From Congeria kusceri (lineage: Eukaryota; Mollusca; Bivalvia; Myida; Dreissenidae), in assembly GCA_027627225.1 (NCBI GenBank), contig CM051028.1, positions 19,592,701-19,656,700 on the forward strand: a stretch of 64,000 nt of DNA. The letters run 5' to 3'. Each line of letters begins with the position of its first letter. The first letter of the stretch is position 1. This document shows, in pieces, positions 38,640 to 64,000 of this stretch. The position numbers and the translations under genes were made by a program. Below the pieces are notes generated by a model that saw nothing but the letters and a program-made list of their open reading frames with translations, made no database searches and was not told the origin of the DNA.

Positions 38640-39899
38640 ATTGAATATTAGAAAACACGCGTTTTGCTTCTGAGAAATATTAAATGTCAGCACCTTTTTG
38701 CACCATACAAACTATTTCTGTAAACACATAATATACAAGAACTATAGATACTCTGTCTAGATGATTCATCTGGATAATCATTGCAATTACAAATGGGAAT
38801 GGTAAGCGGAAATCTAGAGATTGCCAGCAGTCGTAATGCCAAATGTTATTTAGAGACACTCGTTAAAGATGGCAATAGACCTTTCCACAAATGCCAGTCA
38901 TATGCAACTAAATCTGCAATTGTATCCAATCATTGCAATTGGATATCACGTGTTTAACGGTTAACCTATTATACACAAAAGAGCACTTGGCAAAAGCTTG
39001 TGTGGTGTTTGTAATAGTCGATGAATGAAACTCATTAACAAAAGCTCGGGTGGAGTTTAAATTAATCGAGGCAAAACCTGAACAGTTCTATTACATTGTG
39101 TTGTACGACAATACGCAATTCGAAATCCGTAACTACTCAATGTTAAACAGGGAATAGTCCGATCAGTTTCTCTTTCAGTTTATGAACAAGCGATTGACGC
39201 CTACACTAATGGATTATTAATGCATTCTCATGGCATGCAAGTACATATTGTCATAAACATGGCAGCTTATAATTATAACCATGTTTATGTCTTTACTGAA
39301 TGCACAAATGAACAGATATAAACGAAAAGGGGCTTTTCGAAAGCACTGGAAACAAGATCGAAAATCTTTACAACAGCGCTAAATAAAAAAGTTAATGAAC
39401 ACTATTATGTACAAATGTTTAATTTAAAGAGTTCCATTTATAACTTTCATTATGTATCTCTTAATTCGATGACGCAATGCAAAAGGAAATTTACCCACAT
39501 ATACGTACATGACCGCAATATAAATTCACAATTGTTGAAATGATTGTTTGGTATTCGTGCCACATTTAAAATAGATCATATCCGCCCACAATGATGTCAA
39601 TTTACACAAAAGGCCCCCATTTACTCCAGGAAATGACAAAGCGATATGTTTTTCTATTGTACAATGCATTTTTTGTTCAAATATTATTTTTCTGGACACT
39701 GTCAACCATTGTCATGTGGCATTGGCAGACAATATTTTTAGTTTTAGTTTTTAATGTATGTTCTTTAAGTCATATAGACAGCAATACCACACACTACTAT
39801 TTGAAGAAAGACGCATGTTAGAATACAGGTAAATTCAGATCAGGAATAGGGTCAACGCTTCAAGGACGTGGGAATGGTTTGTCAACAGAACTGAGATAT
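38640..39899. repeat. Segmental duplication, copy A (left flank of the 35-bp array)
   Basis: This is collinear with 61450-61795 and 63110-63880. Shared landmarks are AAATATTAAATGTCAGC, TTTCTGTAAACA, CTCTGTCTAGA, TGGATAATCATTGCA, AACAGGGAATAGTC, GGCACTGTCAACCATTGTCA-type text (without the first G-G in both copies), GAATAGGGTCAA and TGGGAATGGTTTGTCAAC. Copy A lacks most of 61800-63100. Confidence 0.85.
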
Positions 39900-42800
39900 C
39901 CCCATCATCCAGTGTACTGTAGCAGGCGGGAATGGTCCATCATCCAGTGTATTTTAGTAGGCGGGATTGATCCATCATCCAGTGTATTGTAGTAGGCGGG
40001 AATGGTGCATCATCCAGTGTATTGTAGTAGGCGGGAATGGTCCATCATCCAGTGTACTTTAGTAGGCGGGAATGGTCCATCATCAAGTGTACTGTAGTAG
40101 GCGGGAATGGTCCATCATCCAGTGTACTGTAGTAGGCGGGAATGGTCCATCATCCAGTGTACTGTAGTAGGCGGGAATGGTCCATCATCAAGTGTACTGT
40201 AGTAGGCGGGAATGGTCCATCATCCAGTGTACTGTAGTAGGCGGGAATGGTCCATCATCCAGTGTACTGTAGTAGGCGGGAATGGTCCATCATCCAGTGT
40301 ACTGTAGTAGGCGGGAATGGTCCATCATCCACTGTACTGTAGTAGGCGGGAATGGTCCATCATCCAGTGTACTGTAGTGGGCGGGAATGGTCCATCATCC
40401 AGTGTACTGTAGTAGGCGGGAATGGTCCATCATCCAGTGTACTGTAGTAGGCTGGAATGGTCCATCATCAAGGGTACTATACTAGGCAGGGATGGTCCAT
40501 CATCCAGTGTGCTGTTGTAGGCGGGGATGGTCCATCATCCAGTGTATTCTAGTAGGCGGGAATGGTCCATCATCGAGTGTACTGTAGTAGGCGGGAATGG
40601 TCCATGGTCCAGTGTACTGTAGTAGGCGGGAATGGTCCATCATCCAGTGTACTGTAGTAGGCGGGAATGGTCCATCATCCAGTGTACTGTAGTAGGCGGG
40701 GATGGTCCATCATCCAGTGTACTAGAGTAGGCGGGAATGGTCCATCGTCCAGTGTACTGGAGTAGGCGGGAATGGTCCATCATCCAGTGTACTGTAGTAG
40801 GCGGGAATGGTCCATAATCCAGTGTACTGTAGTAGGCGGGAAAGGTCCATCGTCCAGTGTACTGTAGTAGGCGGGAATGGTCCATCATCCAGTGTACTGT
40901 AGTAGGCAGGAATGGTCCATCATCCAGTGTACTGTAGTAGGCGGGAATGGTCCATCATCCAGTGTACTGTAGTAGGCGGGAATGGTCCATCATCCAGTGT
41001 ACTGTAGTAGGCGGGAATGGTGCATCATGCAGTGTACTGTAGTTGGCGGGAATGGTCCATCATCCAGTGTACTGTAGTAGGCGGGAATGGTCCATCATCC
41101 AGTGTACTGTAGCAGGCGGGAATGGTCCATCATCCAGTGTACTGTAGTAGGCGGGAATGGTCCATCATCCAGTGTACTGTAGTAGGCGGGAATGGTCCAT
41201 CATCCAGTGTACTGTAGTAGGCGGGAATGGTCCATCATCCAGTGTACTGTAGTAGGCGGGAAAGGTCCATCATCCAGTGTACTGTAGTAGGCGGGAATGG
41301 TCCATCGTCCAGTGTACTGTAGTAGGCGGGAATGATCCATCATCCAGTGTACTGTAGTAGGTGGGAATGGTGCATCATCCAGTGTACTGTAGTAGGCGGT
41401 AATGGTGCATCATCCAGTGTACTGTAGTAGGCGGGAATGGTCCATCATCCAGTGTACTGTAGTAGGCGGGAATGGTCCATCATCCAGTGTACTGTAGTAG
41501 GCGGGAATGGTCCATCATCCAGTGTACTGTAGTAGGCGGGAATGGTCCATCATCGAGTGTACTGTAGTAGGCGGGAATGGTCCATCATCCAGTGTACTGT
41601 AGTAGGCGGGAATGGTGCATCATCCAGTGTACTGTAGTAGGCGGGAATGGTCCATCATCCAGTGTACTGTAGTAGCCGGAATGGTCCATCATCCAGTGTA
41701 CTGTAGTAGGCGGGAAAGGTCCATCATCCAGTGTACTGTAGTAGGCGGGAATGGTCCATCATCCAGTGTACTGTAGTAGGCGGGAATGGTCCAACATCAA
41801 GTGTACTGTAGTAGGCGGGAATGGTCCATCATCCAGTGTACTGTAGTATGCGGGAATGGTCCATCATCCAGTGTATTGTAGTAGGCGGGAATCGTCCATC
41901 ATCCAGTGTACTGTAGTAGGAGGGAATGGTCCACCATCAAGTGTACTGTAGTAGGCGGGAATGGTCGATCATCCAGTGTACTGTAGTAGGCGGGAATGGT
42001 CCATCATCCAGTGTACTGTAGTAGGCGGGAATGATCCATCATCCAGTGTACTGTTGTAGGCGGGAATGGTCCATCATCATGTGTACTGTAGTAGGCGGGA
42101 ATGGTGCATCATCATGTGTACTGTAGTATGCGGGAATGATCCATCATCCAGTGTACTGTAGTAGGCGGGAATGGTCCATCATCCAGTGTAATGTAGTAGG
42201 CGGGAATGGTCCATCATCCAGTGTACTGTAGAAGAAAGGAATGGTCCATCATCCAGTGTACTGTAGAAGAAGGGAATGGTCCATCATCCAGTGTACTGTA
42301 GTAGGCGGGAATGGTGCATCATCCAGTGTACCGTAGTAGGCGGGAATGGTCCATCATCCAGTATACTGTAGTAGGCGGGAATGGTCCATCATCCAGTGTA
42401 CTGTAGTCGGCGGGAATGGTCCATCATCCGTGTACTGTAGTGGGCGGGAATGGTCCATCATCCAGTGTACTGTAGTAGGCGGGAATGGTCCATCATCCAG
42501 TGTACTGTAGTAGGCGGGAACGGTCCATCATCCAGTGTACTGTAGTAGGCGGGAATGGTCCATCATCAAGGGTACTATACTAGTCGGGGATGGTCCATCA
42601 TCCAGTGTGCTGTAGTAGGCGGGGATGGTCCATCATCCAGTGTATTCTAGTAGGCGGGAATGGTCCATCATCGAGTGTACTGTAGTAGGCGGGAATGGTC
42701 CGTGGTCCAGTGTACTGTTGTGGGCGGGAATGGTCCATCATCCAGTGTACTGTAGTTGGCGGGAATGGTCCATCATCCAGTGTACTGTAGTAGGCGGGAA

Positions 42801-44477
42801 TGGTCCATCATCCAGTGTACTGTAGTAGGCGGGAATGGTCCATCGTCCAGTTTACTGTAGTAGGCGGGAATGATCCATCATCCCGTGTACTGTAGTAGGC
42901 CGGAATGGTGCATCATCCAGTGAACTGTAGTAGGCGGTAATGGTGCATCATCCAGTTTACTGTAGTAAGCGGGAATGGTCCATCATCCAGTGTACTGTAG
43001 TAGGCGGGAATGGTCCATCATCCAGTGTACTGTAGTAGGCGGGAATGGTCCATCATCGAGTGTACTGTAGTAGGCGGGAATGGTCCATCATCCAGTGTAC
43101 TGTAGTAGGCGGGAATGGTCCGTCATCCAGTGTACTGTAGAAGGCGGGAATGGTCCATCATCCAGTGTACTGTAGTAGGCGGGAATGGTGCATCATCCAG
43201 TGTACTGAAGTAGGCGGGAATGGTCCATCATCCAGTGTACTGTAGTAGGCGGGAATGGTCCATAATCCAGTGTACTGTAGTAGGCGGGAATGGTCCATCA
43301 TCCAGTGTACTGTAGTAGGCGGGAATGGTCCATCATCTAGTGTACTGTACTAGGCGGGAATGGTCCATCATCCAGTGTATTGTAGTAAGCGGGAATGGTC
43401 CACCATCCAGTGTACTGTAGTAGGCGGGAATGTTCCATCATCAAGTGTACTATAGTAGGCGTAAATGGTCCACCATCCAGTGTACTGTAGTAGGCGGGAA
43501 TGGTCCATCATCAAGTGTACTGTAGTAGGCGGGAATGGTCCATCATCCAGTGTACTGTACTAGGCTGGAATGGTCCATCATCAAGTGTACTGTAGTAGGC
43601 GGGAATGGTCCATCATCCAGTGTACTGTAGTAGGCGGGAATGGTCCATCATCCAGTGTACTCTAGTAGGCGGGAATGGTCCATCATCCAGTGTACTGTAG
43701 TAGGCGGGAATGGTCCATCATCCAGTTTACTGTAGTAGTCGGGAATGGTCCATCATCCAGTGTACTGTAATAGGCGGGAATGGTCCATCATCCAGTGTAC
43801 TGTAGTCGGCGGGAATGGTCCGTAATCAAGTGTACTGTAATCGGCTGGAATGGTCCATCATCAAGTGTATTGTAGTAGGCGGGACTGGTCCATCATCCAG
43901 TGTACTGTAGTGGGCGGGAATGATCCATCATCCAGTGTACAGTAGTAGGCGGGAATGATCCATCATCCAGTGTACTGTAGTAGGCGGGAATGTTCCATCA
44001 TCCAGTGTACTGTAGTAGGCGGGAATGGTCCATGGTCCAGTGTACTGTAGTAGGCGGGAATATTCCGTCATCCAATGTACTGTAGTAGGCGGGAATGGTC
44101 CATCATCCAGTGTACTGTAGTAGGCTGGCATGGTCCATCATCCAGTGTACTGTAGTAGGCGGGAATGGTCCATCATCAAGTGTACTGTAGTAGGCGGGAA
44201 TGTTCCATGGTCCAGTGTACTGTAGTAGGCGGGAATGGTCCATCATTCAGTTTACTGTAGTAGAAGGGAATGTTCCATGATCCAGTGTACTGAAGTAGGC
44301 GGGAATGGTCCACCACCCAGTGTACTGTGGTACTCGGGGATGGTCCATCATCCAGTGTACTGTAGTAGGCGGGAATGGTCAATCATCCAATGTACTGTAG
44401 TAGGCGGAGTGTTCCATCATCCAGTGTACTGAAGTAGGCGGGAATGGTCCATCATCTTGTGTACCGTAATAGCGGGG
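39900..44477 (+). repeat. Minisatellite array, 35-bp unit, about 130 copies
   Basis: The unit reads GGTCCATCATCCAGTGTACT then GTAGTAGGCGGGAAT. Total 4578 bp divided by 35 gives about 131 copies. Units are mostly identical, with recurring variants (atcaag, atggtgcatc, atgatcc, gaagaa). Blocks of variants recur at offsets of 2098 bp and 1538 bp (60 and 44 units, each with two 1-bp deletions). Because 35 is not a multiple of 3, and the consensus has a stop in one of the minus-strand frames passed through, the ORFs over the array are not genes. Confidence 0.97.
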
Positions 44478-45015
44478 ATGTTGTTTTGTTGACAGGCATT
44501 ATACCAATAAAGCGTGTAAATATTTTCATAAATTTAAGTAAATAATAATAGTCATCAATGAACGAACTCAAGATATGGACTATAATATATCGTGTAGTTC
44601 TCACTCTATAAGTAATTAATCTTTTAATTAATACAAACTTGGGTATCTGATTAAACTATTAATGCTCCTATTGACAAAAAAGTACATAATTGTTTGCCAC
44701 GAGACACCAAATGGGAACCAAACGTTTATATTTGATATCTCAAGGTCCATTGTACATCCCTGCATACTAAATTATGTTATCGCATCGGATATGTAGTTAT
44801 ATCACTTAATCAAAACATCTTAGTATGAAATACCGCGTTTAACTACAATGGATATGAATCAAGCATATGGCAAGCAATACAATGCGGCATTGCACACTAA
44901 ATACGGATCTAAAAGTGCAGCTTTTCAGTTCAAACTGGTAAATTAAACTCAAATGCTCGACTAAGATTGTTTTAAACTATTTCTCAAGTGATTGTAGTGT
45001 TCAAATAACTGGGCG
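44478..45015. repeat. Right flank of the array and unique DNA
   Basis: The first bases (GATGTTGTTTTGTTGACA, 44477-44494) match 63905-63921, closing the segmental duplication. The match fades by about 44560. The rest is AT-rich without features. Confidence 0.6.
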
Positions 45016-45725
45016 TAAAGCCCCGGTAACACTGTTACGATTTGTGCTACGATTGGCCACGATTTACAAAATGTTGGTGAAGCGTGGAAAAGCAACTGTG
45101 TGAATCTTGAACAATCTGGGGGATCCTTGTCGATCGGGAAGCGCTACGACAGTTTTGAACATGTTTAAAACATTCGTGGATCATCGTAGTGCCGCCACGA
45201 TTTTTCCAAAACGTAGGACAATCCTAGCGCCATCCTATCTCAATCTGGCTTATTCTTACAGCCATCGTAGATGCATTCGTGGCCTTTGTGTTTAATCGTG
45301 ATTAATCGTGACCGATTTTATGACATATGTATTACAAGTCTGAAGTACGTTATGATACGTTTTGCCACGTGTATGTTACGGATTTCTACGCTTGCCCTAC
45401 GGTTTAGTTACTATTCCAGTACGATCTTTAGCGACAACTATCACGACTACTCACGAATATACACGATGGACCACGACAACGCGACGATAGGGTCGCGTTG
45501 CCTGTACGGTTTATTGCGATGTTACTACGCACTCTCTACGTTTGCCTACGTTGGTGTCACGATTATGCACGATGCTTCGTGAGGTCCAAATCGCCTTGAA
45601 GCGTAGTGAAGCGTGACAATTATTGGCTGCTCGTAGATTTATCGTGATGAATCATACTACAATCTTAGGAGAAACGTTAACAATCGCTTTTAATCGTCTG
45701 TTACCGTAGCTCATACCTACCCACA
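45016..45725 (+). mobile_element. CCCCGGTCACAC-type element, copy 1
   Basis: It starts TAAAGCCCCGGTAACACTGT (45016). It is collinear with 57776-58500 over CACGATTTACAAAA, TGTCGATCGGGAAGCG, CTCAATCTGGCTTATTCTTA, CGTGATTAATCGTGACCG and AGGAGAAACGTTAACAATCG. The right CCGGGGC end is missing here. The interior is a field of degenerate CGTGA/ACGAT words. Confidence 0.8.
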
Positions 45726-46140
45726 CGAAAAAAACAGGGTAACAATAGACTATAACAAACAACTAATCCTATACTGTATATCGTTAGTATATAATTAGTA
45801 AAAAAATGACATGCAAATGAGGTTAATACTATTCTAACAAACTACTCATACTATACTGTTATCAAACAACTAAAATATACTGTATATCGTTAGTATATAA
45901 CAGGTAAAAAAATGACATGCAAATGAGGTTATTACTATACTAACAAACTACTAATACTATACTGTTATTAAACTACTAACAATATACTCTTTCAGAATGC
46001 TATACCAATAATGTACTAATCCTATACTAACAATTAAGTGTATATAGTATGCTGCCAGTATACTTATAGTATACTAACATTATACCGTCAACTGTATATT
46101 AACTAAGCAGTATACTTTCAATTGTAAACTAAGCATATAC
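45726..46140 (+). repeat. ACTATAC-rich repeat adjoining the CCCCGG element
   Basis: It starts with ACGAAAAAAAC and continues with many copies of CTATACT / ACTAATA / TATATCGTTAGTATATAA, including two 110-bp units around AAAAAATGACATGCAAATGAGG (about 45802 and 45907). A reverse-orientation relative lies at 57310-57735, again directly beside a CCCCGG element. Confidence 0.6.
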
Positions 46141-46235
46141 CATAAAGAATTGGAACACGAAAATTTAAAGCCCTATAGCTCATTATTGCCCGAAATTCAC
46201 AAAAAGAATATGATAATTAAGGTTGACCTTAAACA

Positions 46236-46435
46236 ATTTTTTGTTTGGAATTACCCGACCCAGAATTTTGTAGGTATGTATGTAGGTAGGAAGTTAGGTA
46301 AGGATTTTATTTTTTTAAATACACTCATATTGTACATTGAGGGGTTTTGATGAAAAAAAGACTCCTGAAAGACCGAAAAAAAATTGAGTCGCTGGGATTT
46401 TCGTGAGTAGGTCTGGTAACTCCAAACAAAAAACT
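46236..46435. mobile_element. MITE (TTTTTTGTTTGGA ends)
   Basis: AATTTTTTGTTTGGAATTAC (46235-46254) followed by CCGACC pairs inversely with GGTCTGGTAACTCCAAACAA (46410-46429) and AAAACTT. The interior resembles the GGTAGG family of 26.1-26.7 kb. Confidence 0.6.
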
Positions 46436-49400
46436 TTTCATGCAGCCTAACCAGTGTGTAAAATGCCGATCTTATAAATACTCAGTAGAATATAATAGAA
46501 TATAAAAGAATCATATTTATATCCAGTCATTCCAATTGCTGGCATATTAATCACATAATACTGGTTTATCAAATAAAGATTATAACAAAACTAAGTAAGC
46601 CTTCATTCTTGTTATTGTGCACAATGAAATTAAAATACAAATGTAAATAACATTTAAATAATTAAATGCAAACATAAATAACAATCTGTGATTTTTTCTA
46701 ACCAATTTGGGGCCGAAATAGGGCCACATCCACAAAGCAAAAAAAAAACAAAACCTTTTTCACTTTTTTAAAATCCAAAGTTCACAATTGCTAGCAAGTT
46801 TACGTTTACCTTTTTGTCTACTTTATTTTTATTCCATGCAAAGATCTTCTACTAGACTGCATAACAAATTTACATCAAAAGGCATATAATATGTTGAAAT
46901 TCAATTACAGATGTGTAATTTAACCATTATAGAATAATTTCAAACTTAAAAGGTTGAAATATTATTTTCACAAAATATGGTATTACGGCGCTTATTTTCA
47001 CAATTCAAAGGGCCCAGGCCCCATTCACACAGACAGGAAAAACACTGAACGATATTAACTGTAATATATCTATCCAATTAACCAAGGGCGTAGCGCCCTA
47101 TACACACAATATGAACGTGCGTAATACAGCAATGCAGGATGAGAAATAAAATTAAGTATTTGCTTCAATGGTGAGAACAGAATGGCAAGTCGAATATGTG
47201 TATTAATTTTCTTATACAAGTGACCTGTTCATTGCTCATTATGGGAGTCACAACGATGTCATTTACAGTTGGATGTCATCAGTAACATAATTATGAGTTT
47301 AACGATGAAGCTACGAGCAATTGGTTGCGGACCATTATCATTATCTGAGCCCAGATTTCTAGTTCATCGTGGTAATTTAAGCTCTGTCGCATATTAAAAA
47401 TATCTGTATGTGCGTTGTCTAGACATATATCGCATCTGTTTGGCTGAAATAGTTTGCAGTGAAGGACAATCTATCCATAAATGTAATGCATTATTCTGCA
47501 CCAATATCGAATTTTCTTTGACGCCAAGCATTGAAATTAAATCTTGTCGGAATATGTATACTGTTTAACAACGGTGTTTCAAAATTCATCTCGTAGTAAT
47601 CACCGAAATTTTAAAATTTTATAAGCACATTTTGTTGTAAGTTACTGCATACAACGCACGGAACCGCCTTTCAAACCGTCACTACATGGGCAACCGTCGA
47701 ATCTGCATTTAACTCGAGCTCTCGGCAACCAATTTTGGAAAGTATTAATTGTTCACCTTCCAAATCAAACCCGTCTGAAGCCGACAAATTTAGTCTTCGA
47801 CACCGTAGTTTCATGTTGAAAGGACCGACGGTGCGCATGACGGTATAATTTCTATATCTTTGCAAACACCAGTCGTGATTAATTTGCATGTTTTGATTAT
47901 TGTTCATAATAATAGGTTCCATAGTTTTGTTTTACATATCGTAGATTAAATTGTTGTGATTCTGTCGATAAAAATCCATGTATATTACAAGATGAAATTA
48001 AGTTTCTATACTAGAGAAAATAATTACTTCAAACGTAGGAAGGGTGCCTGAAAATGCTCGAGAATGCACCATTCCATCCCTTATTTTATTTTTTTCCCGT
48101 GAGAGGAGGGGAGACGATCCCCTTTCCCGAATCGCCACCTGCGGGATGGACATACCCCTCTCACGCCTCCCCCATCATGAATGTTCTTGTGTGCGTATAC
48201 ATTTTATAACTCTGCCTACGCCCCAGCAATTAACACGTTACACATGTACATAATATGCATACTTTGCGAGTGAACGCGCGCACCTGCAATTACAACACGT
48301 CATTCAAAGACCAGCTATCAGTGGCGTTAAAGATGGCGTCGGAGAGACAACTCGAGTCGCAATCAAAAGGTCTGTTAGATTTAGACGCTAAAATTCATGC
48401 TGAAACAACTAAAAATGAAACGTCCACAACAACTACTAACTTCTAAATTCATGTCTGTTTTATGATGAATTTATTCTCAAGAACATAAAGACTGAAAAAT
48501 TCACAGCATGAATGTTCTTAAAAAAATGTTTATCAAATGTCCATCCATCCATCCTTCCACGTCCCAACTTCCAATAATATTGATATCTTTTTTTTTCTAT
48601 TGTGGAGAATAGGCCGATGGTGATGACCGTTTCAACCTAGCTGTTACTGTTTGGTATCGGTTTGAGGCGGCGGAAGTAGTTTTCAGTTTCCGGTTCCATA
48701 TTGTACAATTGCGAGGTCAACTCTGCCTTTGGGTGCTCCTATTCCATCTCTACTATTGAGCCTGTCTCCAGTCCTGATCAACGTCAATTAGATACTGAAG
48801 GTACGTTATTCGCATTAAGTACAACACTATTTAAATATTAAATACCGTGACTCAACAGATGAATTTAGCCTTTGGTTTAAACATTTTTGTTCAAGCAAAT
48901 GTGTTCCATCAAGAGTTATGAGTTTACATGATATTGCTAAAGGTTTAACGTTTCAGTAAGAAATGTCCAGAGTTCTGCTGCACGAATACATATTTTTAAC
49001 TTCATAGCTTAAAGTTTAACCAACAACAAAAAATGCGAGGACTCGAGCCAAAATTTTATCTGTCAGTTTTGGAATAAAGCAATAAATCAAGGAAAACTCA
49101 CTAACCGTCTATGCTCTGAAATAAACATAGATCATGTAAAGAAATAAATCCGTGCAATATTCGACAAAACAACAGCACAGAAAATGTCCATTTCTCCACG
49201 TTTATTTTCTCTGCTAAACAATTCAAGCTTTTCGAAAAATCGAGAAATCAATGACGTCATACAGATCTAACATAACGTAACGAATCTACACCGGGAGCGA
49301 TGCTTTTTACTATAAAGCGACTGGTAAGTTGTGTTTGTTTCGGCTCGGTTTTGCGATTGAAGTCTCGATTACCTCTACGAAATATCATAAACTATACGTT

Positions 49401-49729: not shown

Positions 49730-50923
49730 CCGGACATCGGTTCCTACGGACATTGGTTCCTATGCTATATTTGATATAGGCGGACATTGGTTCCTACATG
49801 ATTATGACACCCCGGACACTCGTTCCTACATTATTTTGATAGCCCGGACAATCGTTCCTACACTATTTTGACAGCCCGGACATTCGTTCTTACATTATTT
49901 TGTCACCCCGCATGTTCGTTCCTCATTACAGACGTCAGTGTAAGACAGTTTATATAATGTTTAAATTAAAGGCTATAGTAGAAGACAAAGGTTACAGTAG
50001 AAGATGAAAAAGTACTTTATCTAAAAATGCTGTTATGGTATTATTATACATAGAAAACTTGTGCACTATATTAATTTTAGCAATAAAGTCTGCAATAAAA
50101 ATAAGATAATGTCAAACACTATGTTTATATAAAAATGTAAAAATGCGAATAGTACCAATCAATAATTGTTAGTTCCTTTAATTTTAATTTTTAGTATCTT
50201 GAAATGTTAGCCTCCGTTGAACAAAAAAGCCGTTAAAAACACTCTGCGTTAATAATGACACCTCTTAAAACTACTGAGTGAAACAGTGTGACAGCCAATT
50301 ATATTTGATGTGACGCCGATCTGAGAGCGTGAAATACGCTTAGCACATGGTCGTTGTCAAAGCATGAATTGATACTTAGTCTAGTGATACAACTTAATAA
50401 AAGTATAGAATAATTTATATATTTTTTCCCGAAAAATTATGTTTTCATATAGTATATTTTCAATGCATCGTTCAAAAGTAAAAATGTGTCAAAACGCCTT
50501 CGTTTATGTTATTTCTTGATTTCAGATCACACATGTGAACAGTGCCAAGCCTCATTGCCATAAAGCAGACCCCTTCATGATAAAGGCGAAGAAGCTCCGC
50601 TCCGAAATCATGGATGCTACGCACGCGAACAGGGGTCAGCCCGGGCAGATACTAGCGGATAAGGTGGTTCACTACCCTGTACAGGTAATTGTGAAATCGT
50701 GCAAAAAGAGCGACATAAAATTATAATTGTTTGATTAATAAAATAAAACAGATTTTTTTTGCAATTTGGAAAATGACCTAACTTTAAAATAAATCTCTTA
50801 CCTGGTTGAGATTCACAAAAATGGTGGTTGGGGGAGATCAATGACATAATGAATAACTTTTATTCTTGCGTAAACCGGACACGGGTTCTACATAACTTGT
50901 GATTAACTTGTAATTTGGATTTG

Positions 50924-50954
<31 letters not shown>

Positions 50955-52297
50955 ACACGGTCATCAGTCCCAGTATTCAGATACAGGGCTGTTTTTATAA
51001 TCTGACACATGCGACCTGGCGTCATATACAGGCCGAATGACTCGCCACCACATACAAGGAGTACTACGACATCCGCCACGTCTGTGGCATGTTGGACGGC
51101 CTCGCGTTCCTGCCAGCGGGGGACTTCGTGAGCGGGATGGCATACCTGAGGGAGACTGCACCAGAGGTACTCACGCCATTGGTGGATTATTTTGACGCTA
51201 CATACGCGTCCGGTGCGTTTCGGACTGTCAGCGCCAACGGTCGGATACGCTTCAGAAGGACGCCGCCCAGATTCCAGCCAGAATTGTGGAACGTCCACAC
51301 AGCGACCATCAGCTATGGGGCTCGCACCAACAACGTCTGCGAGAGCTGGAATAACGGTTTCCACATCTCGTAGGCCATGACAACCATTCACTGTGGATTT
51401 TGATCGGTTGTCTGCAGAAGGACAATGTCATGGTGGAAACAGACGTGTACAGAATGGACAGGGGCGAGCCGCTAACGAATAGAATGAGAAAGAAGACGGT
51501 GAGCCACCAACAAACACTGAAGAAGTTGTGCGAGCAGTACGTGAACGGCACCAAGTCGATGGTGCAGTTCCTGCATAGTGCTGGTCACCACATTCGCATT
51601 GGACACTCGGGTGTTATTAGCAAAGGGCTGTTACAAATGTGTGCTTAATATATTAATCTGATTAGCCTAATATAGAAAATGTAGCTATATATACACCATG
51701 TATGATTAATTATCTTCGATACGATTACATGTAGATATAAATTTGCTTGTTGGTGCGCGGGTGTTCCTTGTGTGTGTGTTTATGCATGTTATATATAGAT
51801 AACATTTTATAATAATGATGAAATAAATACATATCGACTGCATACTCTGTTTTTATGTTTATTTTTATTCCAATATCTGCATAATGGCTTAATATCGGCG
51901 ATAATTTTATATAAATGACCGTTGACTCATATTAATTATTATATAGGAGCGAATGTCCGGGAAGACAAAATAATGTAGGAACGAATGTCCGGGCTGTCAA
52001 AATAGTGTAGGAACGATTGTCCGGGCTATCAAAATAATGTAGGAACGAGTGTCCGGGGTGTCAAAATCATGTAGGGACCTTTGACTCATATTAATTATTA
52101 TATAGGAGCGAATGTCCGGGAAGACAAAATAATGTAGGAACGAATGTCCGGGCTGTCAAAATAGTGTAGGAACGATTGTCCGGGCTATCAAAATAATGTA
52201 GGAACGAGTGTCCGGGGTATCAAAATCATGTAGGAACCAATGTCCGCCTATATAAAAAATAGCGTATAAACCAATGTCCGTAGGAACCGATGTCCGG
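49730..52297 (+). mobile_element. Mutator-like (MULE) transposon with long TIRs
   Basis: This 2568-bp element has TIRs at 49730-49926 and 51944-52297. Each is made of tandem units of about 33 bp: CCCGGACAnTCGTTCCTAC plus ATTATTTTGATAG. The outer ends are CCGGACATCGGTTCCTACGG on the left and its inverse on the right. The right TIR carries an extra 159-bp tandem duplication (51924 and 52083). The broken transposase lies between. Long TIRs with internal tandem repeats plus a MULE-type protein define the class. No 9-bp target duplication was found (taacggtat vs gattcaccc), so one end may have been altered. Confidence 0.85.
50526..51648 (+). pseudogene. MULE transposase, internally deleted
   Basis: Part 1 (50535-50696) encodes HCHKADPFMIKAKKLRSEIM plus a following HANRGQPGQIL, matching the region after the FLYWCH zinc finger of MULE proteins. 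Part 2 (about 50950-51375) encodes IQIQGCFYNLTHATWRHIQ, a TGA stop, then YDIRHVCGMLDGLAFLPAGD and RTNNVCESWNNGF. These are the segment after the third catalytic acidic residue and the conserved C-terminal tail. Part 3 (51400-51648), after a frame change, ends in KSMVQFLHSAGHHIR. The catalytic core between the parts is absent, replaced by non-coding DNA and an (AT)n run at 50926-50950. The transposase cannot be active as it stands. Confidence 0.75.
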
Positions 52298-53414: not shown

Positions 53415-53429
53415 TTATCACAGTAATAC

Positions 53430-54145
53430 TTAACTGCTGGAGAATTATTCAAGGGACTGCCAATATAAAAATTGGAAAAAGTGCGGGACCAGATCTGATC
53501 TTAAATGAATCTATAATAAATGCACAGATGAACTTCCTCCGTATTTGCTTAAATTGTTTAACAACACATTATGTCTTGGATATTTTCCAGATAAATGGAC
53601 CGAATGTTTTATTGTACCTATACATAAAAAAAGAAATTTAAATGACACAAATAATTTAAGAGTGATAACTGTGTTAAGTGTCATAGGTAAATTGTTCACA
53701 AATTTGATTAAAAGTAGGCAAACTGGGCTGAAAGTACCATGTATTGCTGGAAGCACAAGCTGAATGTCGAGCGAAAATGGGAACAACAGATAACGTATTT
53801 GCCCTTCACCGTCTGCATACACGAGTAGGAAGCATGTTAACATGCCTATATCAATACCACTTGCCCCTTTTGAGCACAATATATCCTCCATGTCATTGAT
53901 ATACAAAGAAAAACGAATCGGGAACAAAACACTCGCGTTGTCTTAGACCTAAATGATTCTCAAATGCAGTTTCGATATCATTATGATGTCTTACTTTTGT
54001 GTACACATGAGTATACATTGCTTTGATAGCTGTAAAACGTAGTCCTCGAATACCGAGTCTGTATATTCTGTACCGAGGATATCCATTACAATGCAATCAA
54101 ATGCCTTTGTAATGTCAATAAAACAACAATTAAATTGCTTATTTG
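53430..54145. pseudogene. LINE reverse-transcriptase fragment with an internal inversion
   Basis: Plus strand, 53455-53812: KIGKSAGPDLI, NTLCLGYFPDKWTECFIVPI, KLFTNLI and KMGTTDNVFALH, the early RT motifs. Minus strand, 54140-53805: CCFIDITKAFD, GIRGLRFTAIKAMY, LGLRQRE, FSLYINDMED and LLVYAD, the following motifs up to the catalytic YAD. Flipping the second block restores the normal motif order with a small gap. The join is at about 53808-53815. Frameshifts and stops are present; not functional. Confidence 0.75.
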
Positions 54146-54829
54146 AATGTAAAATATGTTATTAAATGCTGAAGGACAAATAGGTGTCAAAATCAGCACA
54201 TATAATGACTTTATATAATCGGAGACAGGGATATTTGACTTTTTTTTAACTATGAGTAAATTGAATGTAATAAAGTACTGGTTTAAGGTGATCTGTTCTC
54301 CAGAACATAAATTCATTAAAATGATATATAAAATTATGCTGGACGATATTGAAAGTAATCCCATAAAAACCAACTGAGCAAGTCAAGTGAAATGTATTCT
54401 AAGTTCATTGGGATTCTATCATGTCTGCTTGGCACAAGATGTTGGTGATCTCAATGTTTTTTTTCTGTGTTTAAGCAAAGAATTACTGACACTTTTGTCC
54501 AAGGCGTCGAAGGACGCATAAATGGCTATTCAAAGGCATTTTTTGTAGAAGTATCTTCTGTTTTGAACTTCAATTTTACCTTAAATGGGTTAACATCCAG
54601 AAGGTAAGGAGGAATAATACCGATATTAGTAATATAGTGTTTGCCCAGTTTGCCCTGTTCTCGAAGATGAATATCATCTTATTTTTTAATGTAACATCTA
54701 CTCACAAACAAGACAAAAATACAATCTGTATATCAGTATATTAAATACGTAACCCAAGCTCGTTAAAAGCCACATAGTTATTTTCCTCACAGAATCCAAA
54801 TACTATTAAGTTACTAGCTGTTTATTCAT

Positions 54830-55280
54830 GTAGAGCTTTTGAAATTACAAATACTTTCAGTACATGATGATTAATGCTATTTTATTAAGTTACATGCAGT
54901 ACATATCACGTTCATGAATACAGTGCATATTAGTTTAATGTTTAACTTAGATATACATTATTTTGGCAAAGCATAATAATTAAGTACCGACAACTTTCAC
55001 GTATTACTTAAATATAAATTATTTTTGTAAAGCATGAGAATACAGTACAGATCACTGTCATGTATTACTAAGATAACAATTATTTGTGTAAAGCATGATA
55101 ATACATTAGAGATCACTTTTATGTATTACTAAGATATCACAGATTACTTTTGTATATTACATAGATACAAATAATTTTTGTAAAGCACGAGAATACAGTA
55201 CAGAATACTTTTATATAGTACGCGCAGATAAATATAAATAAATGTATTTCTCTTTCTTAAAGCAAGATAATAATTATTTG
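54830..55280 (+). repeat. Tandem repeat, unit about 63 bp, about six copies
   Basis: Units contain TTTTTGTAAAGCATGAGAAT and ACAGTACAGATCACTTT-like text followed by TATTACTAAGATA. Copies start near 54890, 54960, 55020, 55085, 55150 and 55195 and diverge outward. It is followed at 55305 by GACGATCATGGGCCATGTTG, reminiscent of the GGGCCATCGTGGCCC end of E2. Confidence 0.6.
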
Positions 55281-55980
55281 TTCCTATTTGAATAATTGTT
55301 ATTCGGGACGATCATGGGCCATGTTGGCCTTATTCGTTTTTTATATGCTACATTGTACAATTTTTGAATAAACTTTAGTTTTCTTCTATAAAATATAATA
55401 AACATATGTATATCTAATGAAACTATGTAATGAAAACTAGCACAAAACAAACCTTCCTTTGCAAAAAAATAATCATTTTATTGCGCAGTTTGAGATTGAT
55501 CCAGTTTAAGTTTGGACTTTATGTACACTTTTTTTTCAAACAGTTCGGCTTTTATCCATAAATGAGCATACCATTCCAAGATATAATTGATTTTAACCCA
55601 GAAACCACTACGGTATCAACTAACAAACGTTTGAATGCCCTTCTAGATATATTATATCACTACTCTGTAACGGTTTAGATCACTAATTTGTCGATTTAGA
55701 TGCCAAAATTAAATAAATACGTAAATTTTTTGAATATTTTGTATTTCCCCCAGACAATTTATCTATTTTTTCTTAGAAAAACGTACATTTCTGGCAATAC
55801 ACTTAATACATAATGGCGTTGGACATTACTTTATACACGAGTACAATAATTTTGTATATATACTGGCTTTAATCGCCGAAAAATTCAAAATAGGTACCTA
55901 CCTGTCAATTGCGGACGATATGTTTTCTCTGAAATTTTGATTTATCATCTGCAAATTAGTTTACCGACGTACAGGGGGTG

Positions 55981-57062
55981 CTATCATGTATCTTATGACT
56001 ATTAACACGGCCTAAAAGTTTGAGTCTTGTATCTGGAACAGTTTCAGAATGTTCAATTCATAAAAACCTAATTTTAACCACATTTAATAAGTTCAAAAGG
56101 GACAACAATTCTGGAATTATGTAAGCCAGGGTTATGGGACGTGTCACAGGCATGCATCTTAAGAAAAAAACGTGTGAAGGTTTAAAAATGATAGATTTGA
56201 TGATCATGTGTTTTGTCTTAAATGATGAAATTGTACAATGAACATACATGTACAATTTATATAGCATTACTAAGAACAGTTCAACTGTACTAATGCTAAC
56301 AGCATGCTATTGTATTATAGTTCAGCTTTGTTTGCATCATAAACTGCATCATAAAATGCATCTTTAGTTTAAAATATGTTGAATAAAAAAAAAATAAAGC
56401 TGTTTGTAAAAATTAAATTCAACCTGCCACTTTGAACTGTAGTAGTAGCTTTCATTCCATAATATATTTCATTAAAGATATTGAACAACATTTAAATTTG
56501 AGTTCAAGATTGTCATTAAGATAAAGGTTGCATTATTGATATGTGAATCATTGGTGTAAATTAAGAAGGCATCGAAACATAATGAAGTTATAGCAAATAT
56601 AAACAAATGAGAAATTGTAGAGGAAGACAAGGAAAATATGGTCGCAAACATAAAACATATTGCACCAAGGAGTTGATTTTAGCCCCAATGGTCTGCAAAC
56701 AACTTACAAAAACTACATTGGGTTAGTAGAGGACCGAATTTGTTTCGTTTATTTATATTGGCAATGCTATTTTAAATATAAACAAAGCAAAACTCCAGTT
56801 GCGACAGCAGGAGGGAACTCTTATTAACAGCCCGAGGTCTTTTATTCATGGCAAGTGACCAATTGCCAAAAACAATACACAGGACATCACAAAAACACAT
56901 AACAAACACAAAACACACATGAATAAAACTGGGGTCACCGCCTTGGAACGGTCAATGCAAAGCATTGGGGGTTTAAACCGGTTTTTGTGCGCACGAACCT
57001 CACACTTGGACCAAAATTATTCACAAAACATGTAAGTGTAAATAAAAATGAAGGCGTGAAAA
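55981..57062. other. Intergenic AT-rich DNA with a repeat fragment
   Basis: At 56934-57010 is a GGGGTCACCGCCTTGGAACG fragment ending AACCTCACACTTGG. It is related to 34097-34165. Nothing else is recognised. Confidence 0.35.
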
Positions 57063-57735
57063 TATGTTTGTTTCAGGTGACCCACCATAAAAATTGCCCC
57101 GACCCTAGAACATTTTATTGAGCTCGGAATTATGTTTTCTTTTTTTGGGTCATATTTTCTTTAAAATTATATTCTTTTTGGTTATAAGCATTTTCTTGTG
57201 GTTAATTTTTTATTTATGAGGATCTAGCATAAATACCATATTAACCCCGTATTGAAGATAGACTCTTCAAGCTGCTCATTCTCTAACACACAAACAAGTA
57301 TACCGAACCACCGACCCTGTTTTACCATGTTATCAGAAACACGTTTACCACTCACAAACAGAGTTAAATGCTATACTAATGACACACCGACAAATGCTCT
57401 TATAAATAGGTTAAGTTCAATGCTATACTAAGAGTAAACTGTGAATAGTACTCAAAGCGGACTAAGTACAATGCTATACTTACAACGCATGGATGGACGG
57501 TTTCGAAGTTAAATGATATACATACTAATGACGAACTGCAGTTGAGAATAAAGTTTAATGCTATACTGTAGATGGACTCGGGTCAATTACTCATGCTAAT
57601 GCTATATTAAGAATATATCCCAATGCAGTACGCGATTGCGATACTAACTCTATCCTGCAATAGTGTACTAAACAGTATATAATTAGTGCATTGTTGGTAT
57701 ATCGTTAGTAGTTTGTTTCATTAATTTTTTTCGTA
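57063..57735 (-). repeat. Half MITE and reverse ACTATAC-rich repeat
   Basis: 57063-57125 matches one end of the 26381-26694 MITE (GTTTGTTTCAGGTGACCCAC). 57310-57735 is rich in GCTATACTAA words and ends TTTTTTTCGTACGGG, the inverse of the start of the 45726 repeat. Confidence 0.5.
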
Positions 57736-57738
57736 CGG

Positions 57739-58853
57739 GTAAAGCCCCGGTCGCACTGTCACGATTTTCGTATGGGTAAAGCCCCGGTCACACTGTCACG
57801 ATGTTTGCTACGATTGCCATGATTTACAAAACCTTGGCGAAGCGTGGTAAAGCGTGAACACATACGTACTGGCATCTGTGTGAATCTTGAAGAATCTTGC
57901 GGGATCCTTGTCGATCGGGAAGCGCTTCGACAGTTTTGAACATGTTCAAAACATTCGTGGCGTATCTTAGCGCCGCCACGATTTTCAAAAACGTAGAACG
58001 ATTCTAGTGCGTTCGTATCTCAATCTGGCTTATTCTTAAGGCATCATAGAGGCATTCGTGGCCTTTCGTGTTTAATCGTGATTAATAGTGACCGATTTAA
58101 TGCCATATATATTACAAGACTGCAGTACGTTATGGTACGTTTTGCTACTTATATGGTACGGATTTCTACGCTTTGCGCTAGGGTTCAGTTACGATTCCAG
58201 AAGAATCTTTAGCGACAGCTATCATGGCTACTCACGAATATACACGATGGACAACGACAATGCGACGATTGGGTCGCGTTGCTTGTAGGGTTTATCGAGA
58301 TGTTACTACGCACTCACTAAGTTTGCCTACGTTGGTGTCACGATTATGCACGAGGCATCGTGATGTCCAAACCGCCTTGAATCGTGAGAATTATTGGCTG
58401 CTCGTCGGTTTATCGTGATGAATCTTAATACAATCTTAGGAGAAACGTTAACAATCGCCTGTAATCGTCTTTTACCGTAGCGTATACCTGACGCAAGCGT
58501 ATTACAATCGTAATAGATCGCATCATATCTTGGTAAAACCGTGGCGATTCGGCTGCAAAAACCTACACGTGTCGTTGATATTCGTAGCCAAAATCGTGAC
58601 AGTGTGACCGGGGCTTAACGCTAGCGTATTACAACCGTAATAGATCGCATCATATCTTGGTAAAACCGTGGTGAATCGGTTGTAGAAACCTACAAGTGTT
58701 ATTGATATTCGTAGTCTCGTCCTACAACAACCGTAGGTATACGAAGGAAGACACAATCGCGACACTGTGCATCCCGACTAATCACTATTAACACGTCCAA
58801 GATCAATCGTGGGTTATCGTAGCCAAAATCGTGACAGTGTGACCGGGGCTTAA
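57739..58853 (+). mobile_element. CCCCGGTCACAC-type element, copy 2 (with doubled ends)
   Basis: The left ends AAGCCCCGGTCgCACTGTCA (57743) and AAGCCCCGGTCACACTGTCA (57780) are both present. The inverted right end GACAGTGTGACCGGGGCTTA occurs twice, at 58597-58616 and 58832-58851. TIRs are therefore about 25 bp with GTGACAGTGTGACCGGGGCT. Doubled ends show a nested or tandem second copy, partly a rearranged repeat of 58490-58616. The interior is full of CGTGA/ACGAT words and has no transposase. Confidence 0.85.
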
Positions 58854-61449
58854 GCAATTCCATAACTGATGGTACAGTGTCATTCAAAGGCACCTTTCCC
58901 ATAACAGCGGCGTTGCTATTAAACAAAGGGATCAATTTGATGTGTTTGAACGTAAATTGGTTAATTATGTTCCAGGCCCAACGCCTACGCAAGCATGTCC
59001 TACATGTCATCTTGCTTTACCTCTGGAATAATTACGTAAGGGAAACTTAGGCGATTCTAATAAAATATTTTTAAAAAGCCAACGCAGCTAAGTTTAATTG
59101 TTTCAAAACAGTCATTTAAATGAAGAACTCAATCTATTTTGTCCTTATTTATTGTTTCGTTTCAATGGAATTCAATGACACACGGGTACATAAGAGATAC
59201 TCACTGACAAGTTGATTAAAACCGTAGGCAGTGATTTTACGCTGCGCATTGTTCGCCAGAATAAATTAACATTTTATTGTTTAAGTTGGAAAAGGTAAGA
59301 TCGTAATTGTAGATGGATGAATAGTTTACTGCATAAGAAATGAATCGACAATTCAGAAAACAGTTCCAAATGGCATGGTGTGGAAAACAATTATGATTGG
59401 AATATTGAGCTCTTTTTACTATAAGAGTTCTGTTATAACAACTACGTTGCTGGTAAATGCATGAACTCGAACATAGATGATTATTCACATTTTACGATTT
59501 TTTCCCATGTCATTGCACTTCGATGCAGGTAGAACCGTAAAGTATAGACATTAACTTATATGTGGCTTAATTGCAATAATTGGCATAGCAAAAAAACAAT
59601 GCAAAAACATTAACATATCGAGCACTGACTAGAACGCTCGTGTTTTAGCAACTGCTATATTTATAAAACAATGTATCATACTAGAGTTTTTTAAGTATAT
59701 TCAAATTCATTATAAATGACGGTTGGAAATGTGTCTTCATTGTTATTATGGTTTTGAAATGCACGAATAAATGCGCAAATAAGGATATGGTATCACTAAA
59801 CACTGAAAGTAAAACAAACATAATAGTGCATACAATATAATACATTTCCCGTCAGGTTGACATGAACTTCAGTATACAATGTATGGGGTCATATACAAAA
59901 CTCCTCAGGAAAATCTTAACTTAAGTCAAATTTAAGTAAAACAAATCAAATGCAACTTTGCTTATGAAAGACTTTATATTTGAAATATGGTATAATAAAA
60001 GGCGTCTGTAAAGTCTTTACCTCATTAAAACCGGCCTTAGATTAAAGAAATTTGATGATTTTAATAAATTTACTTATTTTTTCATTAAGGAGCGTTGTGG
60101 ATACGGGCCCAGGTCCAGGTCTTATTACGCAGGAAAACCGAATTCCACAGAAATCATTATGTTATTGCTTATTGTAACGTTAAATTTGAACCTCCTGCGT
60201 TGATGGGGGACGACGATACTAAATCATGTAAGGCTGTAATAACAAATCAAGTATTCTCCCACAATGACGTCTATCTGTGACCTTGTAAGGTCGGCGCAGT
60301 GGTCTGAACTCAAAACAAGTTCTACAGATCATTATAAATTTCGAAGTATAACACGGGTATTTAATAAAACGTTTAGTGACCATTTCACAATAGTTGTGTC
60401 TGATAACATCTTATTAAAATTCACTGCAATATGTTTATATCGTTTCTTTCAAACCGTAACAAGCAAGTAATTTATTCAAGATATTCGTCGTTGCCACAGT
60501 TATTTGTATAAGCACTTTAGCTTCTTTATATTACAAACGACACATTTAAATATTCGGGATAACTGAACTCTTTTCAAATTTGCTTTCAATATTTAGGCCA
60601 AATGTTGCCATTAGTAACTATGAGAAACAACAACAACAACTCCAAATTACAACTAGTAAAATTAGCTTCGAAGAACAAATTATTGCGTACAATTAATTAT
60701 TATTTCCTTGATTCATGTATCTGCGAGTAGGTGCTTGTCGCAAACAGATATAGGGTATCACAGTTCGTCAAGGGATAGTAGGCAAACATAATGACATTAA
60801 AAAGGGGCGTTTATAAACATGGGTACGTTAATAATTTAATATACATAGAACAACTCTCGTTTAAACTTAAAAGTGCGTTTTTAATATCATTGGACGTATG
60901 AACTGCGATAAAATGGTCAAGATCAATCGTCGAATATTCTTACATTCTCAATTGGCAAGATGTAAATGACCACTGTAGATGCATAAAAGCTTTATATGCA
61001 GACGTCCATATATGGGTGTGCGCTTTCGACGTGTCGGTCACCTGTACTAAGTTATAATTAGAGCAGATGACTATCTGAATATATGCCAGAGGAAAAACAG
61101 TTTGGCTTAACCTATGTGAACTAATTTATCAGTCGTCGAATCATCCAACAACATTATACTATCCGAACAAAGCATATTTAGCCTCCGGAAATACCACAAA
61201 GTTATTGTTCTACTGTACATAATGCACTTTTCAGAGTAATACCCGATCACTTTAAAAATTATGACTGGCAAAGACAGGAAATATTGGTACTTAATGTAAA
61301 AAAGCGAACGTATTGTCATCGGAATAAGATCGTGGAAATGGGTTGTCTACAGTATTACAATATATCAATATAATCCGGTGGATAGTAGGCGGTAATATAT
61401 GTATTTTACGTATGTTTTATAAACAAAGTGTGTTGAAAAAACTCAATTT
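58854..61449. other. Gene-poor stretch
   Basis: A minus-strand ORF just right of the CCCCGG element (59010-58860) reads LFNSNAAVMGKVPLNDTVPS; I do not recognise it. A plus-strand ORF at 60095-60280 is likewise unrecognised. The rest is AT-rich without repeat structure. Confidence 0.25.
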
Positions 61450-64000
61450 TATATTGAATTAGAAAAACAGTGTTTTGCTTTTGTAAAATATTAAATGTCA
61501 GCTACAGTAAGTACTTTTTGCACCATAAAATAATTTCTGTAAACAAATATGTACAAGATTTAGATGCTCTGTCTAGAGAATTCCTCTGGATAATCATTGC
61601 ACAACAGTGTTGCCTCTAAGAAAGAAGTCCCTTCCTACTATAATTGTTGCAGACAATGAGGCTAGAGAAACATCTTAGGTGCAAATTTGTAATTGTAGTT
61701 ACAAACGGGAATGGGGAGCGGAAAATCTAGGCATTGCCTTTGGTCTTAATGCCAACTGCTATTTTGCAACACTCGTTAAAGATTGTGGTTCTGTAATATG
61801 ATAAGCATCCTAGTGCAATAACTGACATCGGTAACGACCGCATTCTGCGTTGAGAGCGGAACAAGAGATGGTTCGCAATACAGGGCCCATATTCACCAAC
61901 CCATTCGTAGACTTAAAAAAAAGCACACACTTAGACTCAAGACAAAATACGTCTGAATTTGCAAATTTGCATGGTAGTAATGTTGCTTGCGTCATTACCG
62001 AATCCATCTTAATAAAGAATGTCGTGGATGAATACCCAAATTTACCGCGCTCTTGTTTGAAGAATATACTTTATTCTGAGTCTAAAGTCGAAGACTATGT
62101 TGGTGGATACAGGTCCATGTTGGAAAGCTCAAAGGACAGACAGAAACCCCTTCAGTATAAAACATTCGCAATCTACTCAAATATGTCAGTCGATGCTTTG
62201 TTAATCGTTTTACAAAACTTTCGGGTTTATCGTTCAATGGTCCTTAATTCAGAACAATTAAAATGTGTTGTACAACAATACGCAATACAAAACCTGACAG
62301 GGGTCTCGATCAAATTCGGCATCATTGCCCCAACGAAAAAGTATATATTATTCTCCCATTTCAGACCAAAATTGCCCCTAAAAGAACTGCCATTGAATGT
62401 GTTTTCGTTTTGTTTATGGGAGTCATTTTCGGGGATCAAATTTACTTAAGCACCGTTACAAACGGTTAACGATAAAATCCGAAGAACACCACGTGGTCAT
62501 GTTAAATGACCATTTTGACTTGTCTGTTCCCGATTATTTGTGCTTTCATAATAAAACTTCATTTATATACAGTTTACTGCTAGCTTATTTGCCGGGATCC
62601 GTAATTTCTGTTTTGGAAAAATGGCTTCTGCTCAAAAGTTATCAAAACAGGTGAAGCAAAAAGGCACAAATACCGTGTCTTACAGTCGAAAACACAGTTT
62701 ATTACTGTATAAGAATTAGTATAAGTAGTTTAACAAAATTAAATAAGGTTAAAAATTGAAAGTTAAGAAACGATTAAAAAAATCGGAACTGAAAAACTAT
62801 TAAATTGCATGAAAAATTATCTCTTGCACTGCTCCACCTGATAATGGTCAAGTGGTAGACTGTAAATGGTTAACATTTGACTAGTTAATATAATATTCAA
62901 TGTATTGATACTTTTCATGAATAAAGTTGTCAGGTAAAGAGTTAGACTAAATAAAGTGATTTGAAAAATATATTTAATAGTTTTTGTTTTTGACTCGTTT
63001 GCTAAGTCGAAATTTCCCCTTCTGTGTAAAACGACGCTAAAATTCCTCCGCCTGAGGGTACAGGTACTTTTCCCCCAAACCAGAGAGAGACCCCTGCTGA
63101 CCTAATTGTTACGGAATTTATGTTCAACAGGGAATAGTCTGTGACAAGTATCCCTTTTTGTGCTATTTCAGTTGATGAACAAACGATTGGCGCCTACACT
63201 AATTGATTGCTCATGCCTTTTGAGGACATTTCGGGTACATATCATATGGTTATTAACATGATAGCCTATATTAACATGTTTACCTGAATTTGCCGGGCGA
63301 TTGAATAACGAAATGTGACATTCTTAAAAGCACCGGACCCAACAGTTATTGTAAAATAGTTAGGAAACCAAGAACGGAAATATTTACAACAATGTTTAGT
63401 CATTAAGTCAACGAACACCGAAATGTACAAATTTTTACTTAAAAGAGCTCCATTTATAAGTTCTAGTATTTGTTTCTTGATTCTATGATCAATGCACATG
63501 AAAATGGGTCCACATATACATGACCCCGATATCAAGTATATGTGACCCGTTTCAAATAGATCATACCCACCCACAATGATTTAAATTTGAACAAAAGGAC
63601 TATTTATTCCAGGAAGTGACACAGCGATGTTTTTCGAATATATCATGCATAATTGTTCAAACTTATTTTTCTTTACACTGTCAACCATTGTCATGAATGT
63701 GACATAGGCAGGAAATAAGATTTTAACATATTTTCTTTTAGTCATATAGGCAACACTACCAGGCACTACTCTTTGAAGTAAGACAAATGTTCAAATACAG
63801 GTAAATACAGACCAGGAATAGGGTCAAGATTCAAAGTCGTGGGAATGGTTTGTCAACTGAACTGATACATCACCATAGTCCAAAGCATTGTAGTAGGCGG
63901 AATTGTTGTTTTGTTGACATACTTTATTTATTCCTGTGTTATGTAAATATTTGCATTTATTGTAAAAAATACATCATCACTGAACACATTCCCTGTATGG
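61450..64000. repeat. Segmental duplication, copy B (single 35-bp-like unit)
   Basis: It is homologous to 38640-39900 and 44478-44530, with divergence and indels. It contains 61800-63100, mostly absent from copy A. At the place of the 4.6-kb array (about 63870-63905) there is a single related unit, ATCACCATAGTCCAAAGCAT then TGTAGTAGGCGGA, followed by the shared ATTGTTGTTTTGTTGACA. Confidence 0.85.
61850..62449 (+). CDS. Unidentified 199-residue ORF
   Basis: I do not recognise this ORF. It is the longest unexplained open frame outside repeats and RT, in AT-rich DNA where such length is uncommon. The first in-frame start is at 61850 (non-ATG is possible; an ATG at 61868 gives MVRNTGPIFTNP). 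Composition looks protein-like in the middle (NVVDEYPNLPRSCLKNILYS), with no signal peptide, membrane segment or known motif. It lies in the part of duplication copy B that copy A largely lacks. A short match at the right (ATGTGTTGTACAACAATACG, 62261; compare 39096) shows that this DNA predates the duplication. It could be an exon of an old gene, a decayed transposon protein, or chance. Confidence 0.2.
   Translation: MRAEQEMVRNTGPIFTNPFVDLKKSTHLDSRQNTSEFANLHGSNVACVITESILIKNVVDEYPNLPRSCLKNILYSESKVEDYVGGYRSMLESSKDRQKPLQYKTFAIYSNMSVDALLIVLQNFRVYRSMVLNSEQLKCVVQQYAIQNLTGVSIKFGIIAPTKKYILFSHFRPKLPLKELPLNVFSFCLWESFSGIKFT

Follow-up and report, generated by a model that had tools for sequence, protein, structure and literature searches.

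A 35-bp minisatellite of Congeria kusceri that probably arose in one copy of a duplicated locus, with single-unit relatives kept nearby

The start of a minisatellite is seldom seen, because the prior state is usually gone or is sought in other species. Haber and Louis (1998, as cited in PMC4232551 and PMC3389668) described minisatellites as born at flanking direct repeats of 5-10 bp. A 33-bp segment of the human TRIB3 promoter is single in great apes and other mammals and tandem in one lineage, with alleles of 1-5 units and reported promoter activity (PMC7425993). The large minisatellite linked to FOXF1 at 16q24.1 has a 33-bp unit, extends over kilobases and differs in size between species and between people (PMC4411736). 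Yeast CUP1 arrays have known single-copy relatives and junction repeats of three bp or less, and change size through unequal exchange (PMC4232551). Transposon-derived repeats have also been surveyed (PMC3389668). The locus of the bivalve Congeria kusceri described here resembles the TRIB3 repeat, since one segment became tandem in one lineage and the prior state is known from relatives, but the outgroups of TRIB3 are species, whereas here they are paralogs on the same chromosome and the array has 131 units (PMC7425993). In unit size and length it is close to the FOXF1-linked minisatellite (PMC4411736), although our array is known from one assembly. As in the model of Haber and Louis, a non-repeated segment became a tandem array, but the array lacks a flanking direct repeat. 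The CUP1 arrays differ in having a gene-sized unit and a copy number tied to copper resistance (PMC4232551). Minisatellite birth is thus already known, and this case is ordinary in kind; what lifts it above the average is its built-in outgroups, which make it a test bed.

Coordinates are positions in the window, the whole stretch of 64,000 nucleotides analysed (adding 19592700 gives contig coordinates). Beyond the window, 70 kb of sequence on its left and 99.8 kb on its right were also read, and the assembly searched comprises 1.549 Gb in 1071 contigs, with a host contig of 94.2 Mb; all evidence comes from this one assembly. Tandem Repeats Finder placed the array on the plus strand at 39902-44480, with a period of 35, 130.9 copies and 92% matches. 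Our own segmentation gave 131 units, in agreement with the roughly 130 copies counted in the initial annotation; 39 of the 131 are identical to the consensus, CCATCATCCAGTGTACTGTAGTAGGCGGGAATGGT, and the mean is 1.46 differences per unit. Nine 13-unit blocks had 0.7 to 1.8 differences per unit, units 118-130 had 2.4, and the last unit had 6. The mean pairwise divergence among units is 8.1%, a figure that, given homogenisation, dates the last turnover and not the birth of the array. The G+C content is about 51% in the array compared to 33-34% in the adjoining 2-kb windows (those with array edges set aside). Head-to-tail units of 35 bp, within the range of roughly 10-100 bp, make this a minisatellite. 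Satellite DNA is abundant and forms many or very long arrays; a 175-bp piece of this array found one candidate stretch in the whole assembly, and all 37 of its matches lay inside the array, in a search that skips very common words, so that at the sensitivity used the repeat occupies one place. The exact 35-mer unit had no match in the viral_contigs or genome_contigs databases. The array does not look like a coding repeat either, as its longest listed stop-free frame has 104 residues and 35 is not a multiple of three.

The order of variant units carries a record of how the array grew. By alignment of unit types, units 14-21 (40357-40636, plus strand) recur as units 73-81 (42421-42734), about 60 units or 2.1 kb away, with a local score of 35.0 compared to a maximum of 17.4 in 60 shuffles. 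The lag-60 score was matched by any lag in 0.7% of 2000 shuffles. The neighbour effect at lag 1 was about equally strong (0.95%), and lags other than these two had no significance in the unit-order shuffles. Units 40-49 and 84-92, a pair chosen by eye first and tested afterwards, scored 11.6, and none of 300 shuffles did as well. This non-random order shows that the growth of the array involved the copying of many units at once together with copying between neighbours. It also bears on whether the array length is an assembly artefact. Long arrays are difficult to assemble, but the units differ from one another, the variant blocks are ordered, and the flanks are joined on both sides within a contig of 94 Mb, so that we regard an artefact as highly improbable.

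The initial annotation had proposed that the flanks of the array (copy A) recur near 63.9 kb (copy B) with one related unit between them, and pairwise alignment confirmed both points. The left flanks are homologous over 0.8 kb and the right flanks over 0.36 kb, at about 70% identity, on the plus strand. The nearest block of the left flank of A (38602-39901) aligns 39140-39900 with 63120-63871 (69.6% over 805 columns, E 6e-109), and further blocks align 38602-38785 with 61416-61601 (77%) and 38780-38870 with 61692-61783 (80%). The right flank of A, 44481-44844, aligns with 63906-64273 (70.6% over 381 columns, E 2e-50); in B it runs from 63906 to the last position of the window, 64000, and the homology continues beyond it to 64273. 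The left-flank word GTGGGAATGGTTTGTCAAC is found at 39868-39886 and 63839-63857, and the right-flank word GTTGTTTTGTTGACA at 44480-44494 and 63905-63919; in B the two words bound a single-unit site of 63839-63919, and the homology extends far past them. Between the flanks of B lies a single unit, 63873-63907 (plus strand), which is identical to the array consensus at 26 of 35 positions; with the arrays masked, no other stretch of 37-100 kb matches the consensus better without gaps. When the flanks of A were joined through one unit, they aligned with B as a single alignment (73% over 434 columns, E 9e-72). A 204-codon stop-free frame (61835-62446), without a Pfam match at E 0.01, lies in the sequence that distinguishes B from A.

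A short dispersed repeat might have produced the flank similarity, a possibility that the initial annotation had wanted checked. The homology survived this check: 63100-64000 matched only itself and A in the whole assembly, and only 38874-39092 in the left flank of A is dispersed (at least 47 matches in the assembly, with the best 40 of 2972 candidates scored) and is missing at the corresponding place in B. Bivalve mobile elements with tandem-repeat cores exist, and together with this dispersed piece they could suggest that the array is part of a mobile element with an internal tandem repeat. A repeat carried by a transposon would have its flanks at unlinked places, but apart from the dispersed part of the left flank of A this is not what was found. 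The B flank and two neighbouring modules matched this locus only, assembly-wide, and the copies all lie on one strand in one cluster, which makes a mobile origin extremely improbable.

A and B are not alone. A profile of the site core was searched in 234 kb and returned eight sites, all on the plus strand and within 50 kb: A (39850 and 44481, with the array between), C (61315), B (63822), D (66643), E (74331), F (79705), G (80590) and H (89224). The profile was built from all eight copies, which inflates their own E-values; the next-best match in the 234 kb had an E of 1. Five of the eight sites, D-H, lie beyond the end of the window. Copy C (61315-61438, plus strand) has a single unit according to the profile, the alignment and a bridging match. 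By alignment, B, C and D each have one unit, E and G each have one diverged unit, F has part of a unit and H has none; a second unit was seen in none of the seven copies other than A. The flanks of A joined through one unit also crossed the junction in G (E 5e-12), E (1e-11), D (4e-11) and C (7e-7). F and H gave no junction bridge by BLAST at E 1e-4; H was bridged by nhmmer (E 3e-7), and F only reached into the unit. Since seven of the eight copies have one unit, part of one or none, the array at A is most likely the derived state.

A midpoint-rooted tree of the left flanks grouped A with B (99/99) and then F, and C with D (98/96) with G beside them (83/84), and left E and H without resolution. 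Parsimony on this tree gives one gain on the branch of A, compared to at least three losses if the array was present at the root. A root on A's own branch would need just one loss, but the shortness of that branch (0.089) makes such a root unlikely; sequence exchange among the paralogs may blur the tree. The initial annotation had raised contraction in B as an alternative. Extended to the whole family, contraction means that the common ancestor had a long array and that all copies but A lost units until one or none was left. Reduction of an array to a single copy does occur in nature, as reported for CUP1 (PMC4232551), and the unit and the flanks of B have diverged from A to the same extent, which agrees equally well with expansion. 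Against contraction, each of the three or more losses would have to end at one unit or less, and the units of A coalesce well after the split of A and B (8.1% compared to a flank divergence of about 30%; ratio of corrected distances 0.22), although homogenisation could produce the same. With six further paralogs also having one unit, part of one or none, contraction is now quite unlikely. The claim that B represents the locus before expansion held for its structure and not for its identity: B, with a divergence of about 30% from A, is an old paralog and thus keeps the ancestral structure without being the ancestor itself.

Collectively, these results make it likely that the minisatellite was born in copy A from a single segment that is still kept in paralogs of a duplicated cluster. 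One element of the duplicated module would have carried a single segment of 33-35 bp with a flank on either side. Once A and B had split, and in A only, this segment would have undergone a head-to-tail duplication, probably near-blunt, at a junction that lacked a long direct repeat. The resulting short array would then have reached 131 units by out-of-register exchange or copying, including the copying of many-unit blocks, while the other copies retained one unit (B, C and D; diverged in E and G), a part (F) or none (H).

The sites belong to a cluster of old tandem duplications, all on the same strand, that spans about 38.6-93 kb and extends about 29 kb past the end of the window. Other parts of the cluster contain modules that align as well as the site core. 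One module, 68431-69176, recurs at 76.9, 81.3, 85.1 and 91.0 kb (63-67%), and another, 71025-71468, recurs at 77.8, 82.9 and 92.0 kb (71-77%). When two cluster modules were searched assembly-wide, all four matches of each fell at this locus. Eight site copies and several copies of neighbouring modules, all on the plus strand, mark the cluster as a tandem (segmental) duplication. No clear codon periodicity of mismatches was seen in 16 pairs from two module families (10 + 6), judged by eye from the rates, and many gaps in these families are not multiples of three. Read from sequence, the cluster is apparently an old non-coding tandem duplication. Rfam at gathering scores found in 104 kb one tRNA (39 bits, minus strand, about 75.8 kb), which falls in the interval from copy E to copy F, outside the site copies.

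Amplification might instead have been driven by a function of the array, such as the clustering of sites that bind a protein. The multiplied segment belongs to a stretch whose alignment still extends across the eight paralogs, and the 33-bp TRIB3 VNTR is a known example (PMC7425993). However, the core is not clearly more conserved than its surroundings (A/B identity of 0.83-0.87 in the core and also 0.80-0.82 elsewhere), and other modules align equally well. On these sequence comparisons a functional cause would be very unlikely, and the array is explicable without any function. The flank words TGTCAAC and GTTGACA were considered as a conserved stem and rejected: the left word is changed in C, D and G without a matching change on the right, so that the alignment gave no sign of conserved pairing between them.

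Three more minisatellites sit within 53 kb downstream of the 35-bp array, beyond the window, each with single-unit homologous sites: a first 24-bp array (56 copies, 69271-70615), a 25-bp array (43 copies, 94010-95083) and a second 24-bp array (46 copies, 95570-96675). Each array was collapsed to one unit between its own flanks and searched with the four arrays masked. The first 24-bp array bridged to 82012-82217 (E 2e-12), and by nhmmer also to 77302-77592 (E 1e-7) and 91623-91815 (E 0.01). The second bridged to 87188-87541 (71%, E 2e-52), 72533-72805 and 84431-84596, and the 25-bp array to -58817..-58490 (71%, E 5e-49), which belongs to a repeat with further matches in the 234 kb. Thus the 35-bp array and both 24-bp arrays have pre-expansion relatives in the same chromosome region, and the relative of the 25-bp array lies in a dispersed repeat. 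When a bridge had to align at least 20 bp past the unit on both sides at E up to 1e-4, all four arrays bridged, compared to 35 of 600 random deletions in the cluster when self matches were excluded (30 of 300 in an earlier control that included them). With a 40-bp criterion, 21 of 600 random deletions passed and the first 24-bp array failed by BLAST. Nine other arrays, eight outside the cluster and one inside, gave one non-self bridge; their own loci were unmasked, and the remaining rows were self matches. Assembly-wide, eight of nine matches of the first 24-bp array lay inside itself (the ninth had an E of 5e-4), as did six of six for the second.

The ends of the long arrays bear on how the first duplications occurred. 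The 35-bp array stops at phase 33 of 35, two short of a whole unit, with no word common to both ends. The first 24-bp array ends one or two over (TA), the 25-bp array one or two short, and the second 24-bp array one or two over (T); these remainders were counted manually and are uncertain by one base, since the arrays contain single-base indels. None of the four long arrays therefore departs from a whole number of units by more than about 2 bp. A duplication between direct repeats of 5-10 bp would leave a partial unit of that length, and the lack of one argues against a direct-repeat seed of the Haber and Louis type. For the 35-bp array, the initial annotation had suggested slippage between copies of GGGAATGG. 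The left flank and the unit junction both contain GGGAATGGT, and the present unit could result if 58 bp were duplicated and 23 bp then deleted, or if the template was switched twice, at the cost of an extra step. However, the array ends without a terminal direct repeat, the distance from the flank word to the first unit word is 58 bp and not 35, and the exact word is missing at the unit end of the other seven copies. Nor is GGGAATGG rare, occurring at 6 places outside the array compared to 1.56 expected in the window. The proposed seed did not stand up to these observations; we rejected it as the main cause and consider slippage between direct repeats an unlikely start. Hairpins formed by the units were also rejected as a driver: for dimers of five arrays on both strands, folded with DNA energies and compared to 300 base shuffles each, 14-78% of shuffles were as good or better, so that the hairpins are nothing distinctive.

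A short fifth array, 67330-67559 (beyond the window), has 5.3 copies of a 43-bp unit, the last of them a partial unit of 15 bp. About 29 of the 43 bp are missing in the relatives of this array near 75.0 and 90.3 kb, and the array fits the direct-repeat model better. Since pre-expansion relatives are kept for several arrays, the junctions of independent births can be compared. The four long arrays argue against a direct-repeat seed and for near-blunt first duplications, in a set small enough that it opens this test and does not settle it. Among the titles and abstract openings listed by searches of an open-access library, none describes a cluster in which several minisatellites have single-unit sites as paralogs.

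Arrays with units of 12-80 bp and at least 40 copies number four in the 58.4-kb cluster and none in 170 kb of flanks, and the corresponding counts are 4 and 1 for at least 20 copies, 4 and 3 for at least 10, 5 and 6 for at least 5, and 7 and 15 for at least 3; this comparison is suggestive only, because the limits of the cluster were set after the arrays had been seen and the first array was the reason for looking. It is conceivable, though we hold it doubtful, that the cluster is a hot spot of minisatellite birth, in which four unrelated segments of 24-35 bp rose to 43-131 copies within 57 kb from single-unit origins with terminal repeats of about 2 bp or less. A local property, such as replication stalling or frequent breaks, and not seed words, would then trigger amplification.

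Several other features were noted in and around the window. Arrays of about 140-bp and 167-bp units lie at 32052-33319 and 34515-36702, and arrays of similar units lie near -39, -35, 143 and 154 kb, on both sides of the window. Two repeat copies, 45015-45718 and 57776-58489, are 85% identical, and the second overlaps a short 37-bp tandem repeat. At 49730-52297, inverted repeats of about 194 bp (93% identical) that hold 32-bp tandem units enclose about 2.2 kb, resembling a foldback or terminal-inverted-repeat transposon. A reverse-transcriptase frame at 17309-18487 (Pfam RVT_1, E 2e-33) derives from a fragment of a retroelement. An ankyrin-repeat frame at 22628-24445 has a weak SOCS-box match below the curated cut-off; its best relative is 70% identical, and among the best named ones are Tegillarca granosa (53%), Babylonia areolata (50%) and Nucella lapillus (49%), besides one at 54%.
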